Below are positions 11,905 to 36,796 of a DNA stretch of 42,344 nt, in pieces; position 1 is the first letter of the stretch, and each line of letters begins with the position of its first letter. The stretch spans positions 1 through 42,344 of the forward strand of contig JAFGQW010000161.1 in the NCBI GenBank assembly GCA_016935485.1, given 5' to 3'. The notes below the pieces were generated by a model, which worked only from the letters and a program-made list of their open reading frames with translations, was not told the DNA's origin and made no database searches. The stretch comes from Planctomycetota bacterium (GTDB lineage Bacteria > Planctomycetota > JAFGQW01). The translations under genes and the position numbers were made by a program.

Positions 11905-12068
11905 GGGCCCGCGCAAGAGGAACCTGCCAGTCTGCGCGGATTCTCTCGCCCAGATCCGCACGGCGGAAAGCCGGTGGAATCGCTGATTCGAACCGGCTTT
12001 CCGCCCCGCCTCACGAACCTGAACCAGAATCTCGCGCGAAACCCGGGAAGTCACTCTTGCGGGGTTCC
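11905..12068. repeat. Nested-palindrome repeat element, copy A
   Basis: This 164-base element starts GGGCCCGCGCAAGAG and ends CTCTTGCGGGGTTCC. It contains a perfect 14-bp inverted repeat (GGCGGAAAGCCGGT / ACCGGCTTTCCGCC, 11962-12005) whose loop side continues as GAATC-GCT-GATTC. The outer arms also pair (GCAAGAG/CTCTTGC and CGCG-GATTCT/AGAATC-T-CGCG). It shares long identical blocks with copy B, including the 20-base run CACGAACCTGAACCAGAATC. Its right end directly abuts the stop codon of the minus-strand 90-residue gene at 12069. No ORF or transposase lies within. Confidence 0.8.
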
Positions 12069-12341
12069 TCAGACCCCCGCGTGCCTCAGGTCCGAGAAAC
12101 TCGCGCGGTAGACGCGCTTGCCGTGGGTGCGCGTCAGTCGTTTGCGGTTGAGCTGACGCTGGACCTTCTCGTGGAGGATCGTGAGATAACGCCCGCACTC
12201 GTCGCGCGTGCCCACGAAGATCGCATCGTCGCTCAGGCTGTTGTAGACCTTGTACAGGCGCTTGCCGTGGACCCTTCTCAGGAAACGAACAGAGAGGTCC
12301 AGCTTGAAGCCATCGTTCTTCTGATCATGCTCGTGGCTCAT
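12069..12341 (-). CDS. Small basic hypothetical protein with internal repeat
   Basis: This 90-residue protein starts MSHEHDQKNDGFKLDL; the ATG at 12341 has GGAA upstream, and the track's extra 22 residues are low-complexity. The amino-acid mix (Asp, Asn, Tyr, Lys, Phe in balance) is that of a real globular protein, unlike the Arg/Pro/Ala shadow frames around it. It contains two related segments, RRVHGKRLYKVYNSLSDD and RTHGKRVYRASFSDL, suggesting an internal duplication or a symmetrical basic surface that could bind nucleic acid (inference). No family was recognised. Repeat copy A begins at the base after its stop codon. No convincing promoter was found in the gene-poor region upstream. Confidence 0.62.
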   Translation of the reverse strand: MSHEHDQKNDGFKLDLSVRFLRRVHGKRLYKVYNSLSDDAIFVGTRDECGRYLTILHEKVQRQLNRKRLTRTHGKRVYRASFSDLRHAGV

Positions 12342-13040: not shown

Positions 13041-13058
13041 TCGCTTAGGGCGACTCAT

Positions 13059-13204
13059 GGCCCATGCAGGAAGCGCTTCCCGGGCTTGGAGGCCAGGTCT
13101 GAACTCAGGCTCCTGCGGCGGGATGCCGGTTCGAACCAGCGGTTCCACCGACTCTCCGCGGTGTGGACCTGGGCAAGAAAGGAAGGTGCTTCTCTCGCCG
13201 GCCC
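13059..13204. repeat. Nested-palindrome repeat element, copy C (reverse orientation)
   Basis: Read on the minus strand, this segment has the same architecture as copies A and B: GTCGGTGGAACCGCTGGTTC-GAACCGGC at the core, then AAGCCCGGGAAG and GGGCC at the end. The core stem is GAACC/GGTTC where copy A has GAATC/GATTC, a compensatory pair change. The outer stem uses GAAGC/GCTTC where B has GAAC/GTTC, and CCAGGTC/GACCTGG pairs in between. Conserved pairing with altered sequence supports a structured element. Confidence 0.65.
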
Positions 13205-34355: not shown

Positions 34356-35222
34356 ATGGTGTTCGAGAACGACCCCTTCGAGAACTTCAAGCGTCAGCGC
34401 CAGGTGGAGCTGATCGAGCAGGGCTTCAAGAACAAGGCGGAGACCCGCCGCAAGGAGCTCGACGATCTGGTGCGCAGCGGCCAGCGCTCCTCCGAGCTCG
34501 CCGACCGCATCCACGAGGAGATGCAGGAGTTCTTCAACGAAAGCAAGGAGCAGGTCTCCAGGCTCTTCAACGAGAGCAAGCACCCCGATTCGGTCGCGGC
34601 CGAGAAGGGCGTGCAGGAGGAGATGGAGGCCTTCTTCCGCGAGTCGACCGCGACCGCGGAGCGGCTGCTCGCCGGGATGTGCGACGCGGCGGGCGACCCG
34701 CACGAGGCCACCGACCGCATGGTGGACCACTTGAAGGACGTCTTCCAGCGATCGATGGACCGCATCGCCCGGGTGCGCGAACAGTACGCTCAGTCCGAGG
34801 AAACCGCCGCCAAGGTGGCGGGGGTCGCGAACCTGACCGACGTCGTGCAGACGATCAACGAGCTCGCGGACGGCGAGGACCCCTTCCGGCGCCAAACGCC
34901 GCCGGCAGCGCCCGTCCGGCCCGGCACCGCCGCCGGAGCCGCCTCGAGCGTCGTGACGGCCACACCCGAAGACGACCGCCTCGGCGCTGCACTCCCGCAC
35001 CGCCGCGTGGAGCGGGACAGTGACGAGGACACCTCCTCGCAGCGGATCCTCCGCCGCCACGGGCACCTGCCTTCCGGCAAGGCGCGCAAGGTCGGCATGA
35101 GCCTCCAGGAGATTGGCGAGCTTCGCGCCCTGAAGGAGCTCCTCATCCAGAAGGGCATCATCAGCCGCGAGGAGATCGCCGAGCAGCAGGCTGCCGCCAT
35201 CCGCGGCGCCCAGGCAGACTGA
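34356..35222 (+). CDS. Cytoplasmic coiled-coil hypothetical protein with SHOCT-like tail
   Basis: This 288-residue protein has no signal peptide. The first about 165 residues are charged, helical and probably coiled-coil (FKRQRQVELIEQGFKNKAET; LADRIHEEMQEFFNESKEQV; EEMEAFFRESTATAERLLAG). Two FFxES motifs (EFFNES, AFFRES) and RLFNES repeat a similar helix. A Pro/Ala-rich linker follows. The last 30 residues, LRALKELLIQKGIISREEIAEQ, resemble the SHOCT short C-terminal helical motif (L-x2-L...G-I-I-S/T-x-E-E). The ATG at 34356 sits after GGGGCAGTGCC. A polymerising or membrane-associated adaptor is possible but unproven. Repeat copy B begins at the base after its stop codon. Confidence 0.75.
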   Translation: MVFENDPFENFKRQRQVELIEQGFKNKAETRRKELDDLVRSGQRSSELADRIHEEMQEFFNESKEQVSRLFNESKHPDSVAAEKGVQEEMEAFFRESTATAERLLAGMCDAAGDPHEATDRMVDHLKDVFQRSMDRIARVREQYAQSEETAAKVAGVANLTDVVQTINELADGEDPFRRQTPPAAPVRPGTAAGAASSVVTATPEDDRLGAALPHRRVERDSDEDTSSQRILRRHGHLPSGKARKVGMSLQEIGELRALKELLIQKGIISREEIAEQQAAAIRGAQAD

Positions 35223-35381
35223 GGGCCCGCGCAAGAACGACTTCCCGTTTTCGCGGATCTGCTCGCCCGGGCCCGCGCGGCGGACAGCCGGTGGAATCGT
35301 TCATTCGAACCGGCTTCCCGCAACACGAACCTGAACCAGAATCTCGCGGCGAAACCCGGGAAGCTGTTCTTGCGCGGGCCC
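35223..35381. repeat. Nested-palindrome repeat element, copy B (best preserved)
   Basis: This 159-base element is bounded by a perfect 16-bp inverted repeat, GGGCCCGCGCAAGAAC (35223-35238) and GTTCTTGCGCGGGCCC (35366-35381). Inside, CTTCCCG pairs with CGGGAAG, and TTCGC-G-GAT-CTG with CAG-A-ATC-TCGCG-GCGAA. A second hairpin is built on GCCGGT (35287-35292) and ACCGGC (35309-35314). It directly abuts the preceding TGA stop. It has no coding capacity of note. It shares CACGAACCTGAACCAGAATC and AAACCCGGGAAG with copy A, 23 kb away. Confidence 0.85.
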
Positions 35382-35422
35382 GTGAACCGCCGCCATCGTG
35401 CTGGCCGCCGCAAGGCGCCCCT

Positions 35423-35490: not shown

Positions 35491-36654
35491 ATGATGCCCG
35501 TTGCCGATCGCCCAGCCCGCGCGACGCGCCGCGCCACCCGCCGGCGAGGTGGCGTGATCCTGCCCCTGCCGTTCGTGGTCCTGGTCGCCATCGCCCTTGC
35601 CGGGGGCTGCCGCACCGGGTGGGACCACCGCAGCACCCTCCATCAGCTCTATATACCCGACGAAAGCGGCCAGCTCGTTGCCGCTTCCACCGTCAAGGAA
35701 CTGTCGTCTGGCCAGTGCCTGTTCCGCGCCGTCCTCGGACCGTTCGGGCTCTATGATCCCGTGCCCGAGGAGGTTCCGGTCCCCGACCCCGCGGGGCTAG
35801 GACGCACGACGATCCTCGAGCTCTCGGGCCTGCTCGCGGGCAACCCGGCGCTCACGGCGTTCGCGTTGCCCGAGTTCTCGGAGCTGGCGCTCAAGGCCCC
35901 GTTCGAGCTGACCCGTGCCCAGGCCGTCAAGGCGCTCGGCACGGCCCTCGACCGCCAGATCCCGCCGCTTGCACCGCTCCGGGGCGCGACCGAAGAAAGT
36001 GCCGAGAGAATCGGGGCCGCCGTCCGGGAGCTCATCGGTCGGGACGCTGCGGAGGCGACGGGCAGTGAGGCGCCCGGGACGCTTGGAGAGGAGCGCCGGC
36101 GCGAGCTCGTGCACGGGCTCGCCACGACCGACTACCGCTCGATCGAGAACACCCGCCCTGCCCTCAAGGCCCTCGGCCTGGTCGCTCGGTTCGCAGCGGG
36201 AGAGCCCGAGTCCATGCGCGGCGTCGCCGAGGAAGGCATTTATCGGCTGAGCCGGACGCTCTGTCGTCTGACGCTGCTTGCGCTGCTCGCAACCGAGCAG
36301 AGCACGGTCGTGCGCGGCGCGGCGGCCGAAGCGATCGGCGCGGCCCGAGAGGACTGGGCCGAGCGGGCGCTGCTCGATCTCCTGCCGGCAGAGAGCGACC
36401 CCGGCGTGATCCGCAAGGTCTACCGCTCGCTTGCGGAATACCGCACGTCCGCGGTCGCGCGAGCGCTGATCGCGGCGTGGAAAGCGCAGCCGAACTCGCT
36501 CAACGCGACGCTGGCCCGGCGTGCCCTGCTCGAGTTCACCCGGGAGGACCTCGGAAGCGCGCTCGATGCGTGGGAGAATCGGCTCGCCGAGCTGGGCTAC
36601 CTCGCGGCACCCCCACCCGCACCCCCGCGGGCGCCGCCCGTCCGCGCCACCTGA
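35491..36654 (+). CDS. Lipoprotein with HEAT-like helical repeats
   Basis: This 387-residue protein has an Arg-rich n-region, hydrophobic segment and lipobox (LPFVVLVAIALAGGC). The mature region opens with about 60 beta/coil residues (YIPDESGQLVAASTVKELSSG; FRAVLGPFGLYDPVPEEVP) and continues as helices. HEAT-like units include VVRGAAAEAIGAAREDWAERALLDLL and VIRKVYRSLAEYRTSAVARALIAAW. The ATG at 35491 (MMPVADRP) was chosen to give a normal lipoprotein signal; the next ATG, three bases on, is equally possible. The C-terminus APPPAPPRAPPVRAT falls in a 71-bp segment that is duplicated downstream, so the true end may have been altered by that duplication. Function unknown; probably an envelope scaffold. 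Confidence 0.75.
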   Translation: MMPVADRPARATRRATRRRGGVILPLPFVVLVAIALAGGCRTGWDHRSTLHQLYIPDESGQLVAASTVKELSSGQCLFRAVLGPFGLYDPVPEEVPVPDPAGLGRTTILELSGLLAGNPALTAFALPEFSELALKAPFELTRAQAVKALGTALDRQIPPLAPLRGATEESAERIGAAVRELIGRDAAEATGSEAPGTLGEERRRELVHGLATTDYRSIENTRPALKALGLVARFAAGEPESMRGVAEEGIYRLSRTLCRLTLLALLATEQSTVVRGAAAEAIGAAREDWAERALLDLLPAESDPGVIRKVYRSLAEYRTSAVARALIAAWKAQPNSLNATLARRALLEFTREDLGSALDAWENRLAELGYLAAPPPAPPRAPPVRAT

Positions 36655-36796
36655 GCGCGCGCCCTTCGCGCGCGACACCCGCACGCCTATCTGAAAAATG
36701 CCCCAGGGGCGTTTTTTTCAGATAGCACCCGCACCCCCGCGGGCGCCGCCCGTCCGCGCCACCTGAGCGCGCGCCCTTCGCGCGCGACACCCGCAC
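36614..36796. repeat. 71-bp direct duplication flanking a 41-bp palindromic terminator
   Basis: Bases 36614-36684 and 36726-36796 are identical by inspection (period 112). Each copy carries GCGCGCG-CCCTT-CGCGCGC, a 7-bp hairpin. The first copy includes the last codons and stop of the upstream lipoprotein gene. The 41 bases between are the terminator palindrome. Confidence 0.9.
36687..36725. terminator. Bidirectional intrinsic terminator
   Basis: CTATCTGAAAAA and TTTTTTTCAGATAG flank GCCC-CAG-GGGC. The GC stem with an A-tract on one side and a T-tract on the other works on either strand, fitting its place between convergent genes. Confidence 0.8.

Follow-up and report, generated by a model that had tools for sequence, protein, structure and literature searches.

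A palindromic 159-bp repeat of a Planctomycetota genome as a probable miniature element of the ISAzo13 type

Introduction

Correia, ERIC and Nezha are bacterial MITEs, short and non-coding sequences with terminal repeats and strong hairpins, found as many dispersed intergenic copies. MITEs as such are already known, and the family described here, broadly distributed, is very probably one more of them. Two other systems are relevant for comparison. REPs are palindromes of 20–40 bp (PMC3733652), and ISAzo13 insertion sequences have been reported to produce 3-bp duplications (PMC10045372). In the open-access papers searched we found neither a published description of ISAzo13-linked MITEs nor a paper containing the end sequence of the present element.

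The window, i.e., the whole stretch of 42,344 nucleotides that was analysed, belongs to a Planctomycetota draft genome (G000; 4.9 Mb in 405 contigs). It contains copies A, B and C of a repeat that the initial annotation had described as a previously unnamed family without internal transposase, possibly MITE-like, a description that our analysis upholds.

Results

Copy B and its insertion site

The features of copy B and its surroundings are:

35223–35381, plus strand: predicted MITE copy B, full length, 159 bp, with ends GGGCCCGCGCAAGAAC/GTTCTTGCGCGGGCCC
35223–35247, plus strand: left terminal inverted repeat of B, 25 nt, 92% complementary
35357–35381, minus strand: right terminal inverted repeat of B, 25 nt, partner of the left repeat
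34356–35222, plus strand: gene upstream of B; B is inserted at its stop codon
35220–35222, plus strand: left target-site copy TGA of B, identical with the stop codon of gene 34356–35222
35383–35385, plus strand: probable right target-site copy TGA of B, with one extra G between it and the element

The ends of B confirm by direct reading the 159-base element with a perfect 16-bp terminal inverted repeat that had been noted earlier. No gene is called inside the element, no transposase is encoded, and the fold is far better than those of dinucleotide shuffles (z = -6.4). The right copy of the TGA pair is offset by one base, and the pair was scored as not exact in the duplication count given below. 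The two genes flanking B have orthologues in the sister genus G001 that lie 43 bp apart, with no element between them. The same part of the window also holds a perfect 71-bp direct duplication (36614–36684 and 36726–36796, 112 bp apart).

Copies A and C

Two further copies are located upstream in the window:

11905–12068, plus strand: predicted MITE copy A, full length, with TCA/TCA on its flanks, 81% identical to B
about 13058–13204, minus strand: predicted MITE copy C, old, with an internal deletion and in reverse orientation, assigned by homology to B

Copy A was correctly recognised as a relative of B, and also folds well compared with shuffles (z = -5.1). A minus-strand gene (12069–12341) terminates exactly at its right border. 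As for copy C, membership in the family stands, with 73% identity to the reverse complement of B, and the resemblance arises because the element is palindromic; the fold of C itself is weak (z = -1.8). A TCA is found just before copy C (13055–13057), and the duplication on the far side has been lost.

Copies and consensus in the host genome

A DNA search matched about 40 places in G000, and a covariance-model search added further copies. The repeat family is real, and many of its members lie outside the window. A profile search over the loci distinguished about 50 copies or fragments, short deletion derivatives included, and both ends are readable in 29 of these. Internal deletion derivatives that keep both ends occur at L036 1813–1899 (87 bp) and L038 1755–1814 (about 60 bp). 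Several contigs terminate within copies of the element, as expected because the repeat breaks the assembly.

The consensus is 159 bp long (GGGCCCGCGCAAGAATnACTTCC...GGAAGTTATTCTTGCGCGGGCCC), and the terminal motif of the element is:

GGGCCCGCGCAAGAATAA: terminal motif

Nearly the whole consensus is self-complementary, with a fold of 66 pairs and -109 kcal/mol, and copies match their own reverse complement end to end. The interior 22-mer CTCGCGGCGAAACCCGGGAAGT had no match in GTDB genomes other than the host. A search of 294 genomes of the phylum yielded no convincing relative of the full element, the sole other match covering 30 bp, and plasmids and phages gave none either; the end motif was not found in viral contigs.

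Target-site duplications

Exact TNA/TNA duplications flank 9 of the 29 two-ended copies, against about 0.5 expected by chance. These nine are mostly among the least decayed; in most older copies the matching duplication has been lost. The element thus combines the terminal repeats, target duplications, dispersed copies and short non-coding length of MITEs. The intergenic location, palindromic form and high copy number would also suit REP/BIME-type palindromes spread by a RAYT-type enzyme. This reading is contradicted by the length of 159 bp, the long terminal repeats and the 3-bp target duplications, which depart from a palindrome of 20–40 bp without target duplication; to our knowledge, REPs leave no such duplication. 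We assign the REP/BIME explanation a negligible probability.

Relation to ISAzo13 elements

For a MITE, ends shared with autonomous elements are expected, and such ends were found in G071, G168, G020 and a Dehalococcoidia contig (L193). A match to an insertion-sequence terminus had been named beforehand as an observation that would refute the view of an undescribed family, and the ends of ISAzo13-family elements provide that match. ISAzo13-family (PF07592) transposases are present in G000, G071, G168, G020 and G057. The element of G071 is 1071 bp long (L119 1354–2424), carries GGGCCCGCGCAGGAATAACTCC at both ends and is surrounded by TTA/TTA; its transposase is broken. Among the four ISAzo13 elements with matching ends, it is the only one with both ends and a clean duplication. 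In G168, an ISAzo13-type element of 1447 bp with the same ends sits within a MITE copy of the same superfamily (L138 987–2482), and in both G020 and contig L193, one matching end precedes an ISAzo13 transposase. The phylum has roughly ten full-length ISAzo13 elements of 1.29–1.32 kb. Their 3-bp duplications read TTA or TAA, and their ends are related, in most cases sharing the layout GG....G..A..AATAAS with its AATAA-type core.

A decayed ISAzo13 element in the host genome (C38, 266 bits) has strongly diverged ends and no clear duplication; an intact ISAzo13 element with exactly the end of the repeat was not found there. The ISAzo13 frames in G071 (L119) and in the host genome (L118 1462–2523) run out through the terminal repeat, with C-termini ..LFLRGP or ..LFLREP. 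Because such a frame stays open through the repeat, its stop codon would come from the TNA target duplication.

From these shared ends, the target duplications, the dispersed copies and the empty orthologous site in G001, the repeat is very probably a MITE, or non-autonomous transposon, of the ISAzo13 type, mobilised by an ISAzo13-family transposase. It shows the 3-bp target duplication of that family and encodes no DDE_Tnp_ISAZ013 transposase, and in sequence terms it is a dependent of the ISAzo13 family, not an autonomous member.

Mobilisation by another TNA-targeting transposase, e.g., of the IS5 (IS1031-type) or Harbinger-like kind, was also considered. IS1031-type elements also duplicate TNA, and the host genome does contain one DDE_Tnp_1 protein. 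However, this protein is present in a single copy and its only retrieved match is barely above the cut-off, whereas the terminal sequence of the repeat sits on ISAzo13 elements in several genomes. With this one protein, PF01609 was rejected as the partner. We consider another TNA-targeting partner highly improbable.

The same ends in other genomes

Of 392 genomes of the phylum, 12 contain the end sequence GGGYYCGCGCAAGAATAASTTC(C) at up to two mismatches, and the control gave a single match overall. G051, from another family of the phylum, has elements of 166 and 184 bp with the same ends and a different interior. An exact scan of GTDB placed GGGYYCGCGCAAGAATAASTTC on short elements whose interiors are unrelated, in genomes with titles naming at least about twelve phylum-level groups. 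Among the matches listed are Planctomycetota, Acidobacteria, Nitrospinota, Nitrospirae, Fermentibacteria, Gemmatimonadetes, Rokubacteria, Dehalococcoidia and Deltaproteobacteria, and the isolate Sedimenticola hydrogenitrophicus. The flanks could be read for 111 short elements, likewise among the matches listed: 68 show an exact 3-bp duplication (TNA in 64) and none of the 111 a 4-bp one; lengths cluster at 157–159, 165–166 and 179–184 bp, and the interiors form about nine groups, some of them across several phyla.

A palindromic interior is found in only some of the groups, the family in the window being among the most extreme (interior z = -8.1). Universal full-length palindromy was ruled out, as two of the largest cross-phylum interior families have representatives that fold no better than shuffles. 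One interior family of 157–170 bp with the same ends occurs in L142, L152, L158, L198 and other contigs, labelled Nitrospinota, Acidobacteria, Nitrospirae, Deltaproteobacteria and Planctomycetota. This distribution suggests transfer between phyla or misbinned contigs; most genomes with these ends are MAGs, and single cross-phylum cases could be of the latter kind.

Placement at stop codons

In 840 kb of the host genome, gene stops make up 19.5% of the TNA sites outside gene interiors and 39% of the CTNAG sites. The fraction of two-ended copies that adjoin a gene stop codon (15/29) is clearly above the first baseline (p = 1e-4) and not the second (p = 0.12), which leaves a strong stop-codon preference beyond motif and purging unproven. 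A preference for CTNAG sites combined with purging within genes may be behind the placement: the gene is not damaged when the duplicated TNA is its own stop codon, and such insertions therefore persist. In other genomes, 13 of 55 elements directly adjoin the stop codon of an ORF with 150 or more codons, compared with 4% of random TNA sites, an enrichment that is overstated because this null includes TNA sites inside genes. In the left flanks of the G000 copies, TGA is far commoner than TCA.

When all placements are counted, 19 adjoin a gene stop, 16 in the orientation of the gene and 3 in the opposite one (p = 0.004). This bias, together with the very stable folds of A and B, would favour a structured RNA or 3'-UTR hairpin under selection, acting as terminator or mRNA stabiliser at gene ends. 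A terminator-like site was not found, however, and the TNA duplications mark the element as an insertion. Nor was there a match to an Rfam 15 family at gathering score, with only weak hits at chance level.

Paired changes

The structural reading was examined through the changes at paired positions. RNAalifold alone gave a poor structure of 26 pairs, and the pair counts were therefore based on the consensus fold. In the full palindrome, single changes comprise 274 pair-breaking and 88 pair-keeping cells, and double changes 47 pair-keeping and 33 pair-breaking ones. The 47 kept double changes exceed the 27 in plain shuffles, as would be expected of compensatory change in an RNA. But broken double changes are also in excess, and both excesses are expected because the copies differ in age. 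Within age strata, kept double changes are close to chance (7 versus 4.7 in young copies, 27 versus 21.8 in old ones), with no clear excess, and the consensus pairs better than every single copy.

The paired changes GAATC/GATTC versus GAACC/GGTTC that were first noted are present, but most changed pairs are one-sided and broken, and the selection on structure that they had been taken to imply is not supported. The scarcity of paired changes, the loss of the excess upon splitting by age, and the superior pairing of the consensus all argue that the copies decayed from a palindromic ancestor. Selection for an RNA structure is accordingly a quite unlikely explanation.

Discussion

For a MITE of the ISAzo13 type, the following scheme can be envisaged. 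An ISAzo13 transposase would bind the terminal repeats and then excise or copy the element, which would insert at TNA sites, often CTNAG, with doubling of the three bases. If the target is itself the TGA or TAA stop of a gene, the duplication would keep the stop codon and the insertion would survive. The near-perfect palindrome probably reflects the build of a master copy, which could have arisen when one transposon end was duplicated in inverse orientation; individual copies would then have decayed from it.

The link between an ISAzo13-type MITE and stop codons is attractive but unproven. A wider proposal, that of a cross-phylum superfamily of ISAzo13-driven miniature elements that favour stop codons in a fixed orientation, re-create the stop, place a hairpin behind genes and keep their interior intact between phyla, appears doubtful.

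The present assignment links a repeat that would otherwise be taken for puzzling structured DNA to a transposase family, and does the same for the short repeats that bear these ends in the isolate S. hydrogenitrophicus and in many uncultured bacteria. It also illustrates how targeting of TNA allows an element to land on a stop codon without harm, and the ends provide a signature by which such elements, several of which break MAG contigs, can be annotated.

Compared with known systems, the element shares with REP/BIME the extragenic location, palindromic form and many copies, but is much longer and has target-site duplications. Correia, ERIC and Nezha differ in end sequence and target site, whereas the element in the window is tied to ISAzo13. 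With the ISAzo13 family itself, the element shares 3-bp duplications (TTA/TAA for the intact ISAzo13 copies) and a related layout of the terminal repeats. Unlike the ISAzo13 elements, which are about 1.3 kb long and carry a transposase, the element in the window is 159 bp, encodes none and is palindromic throughout.
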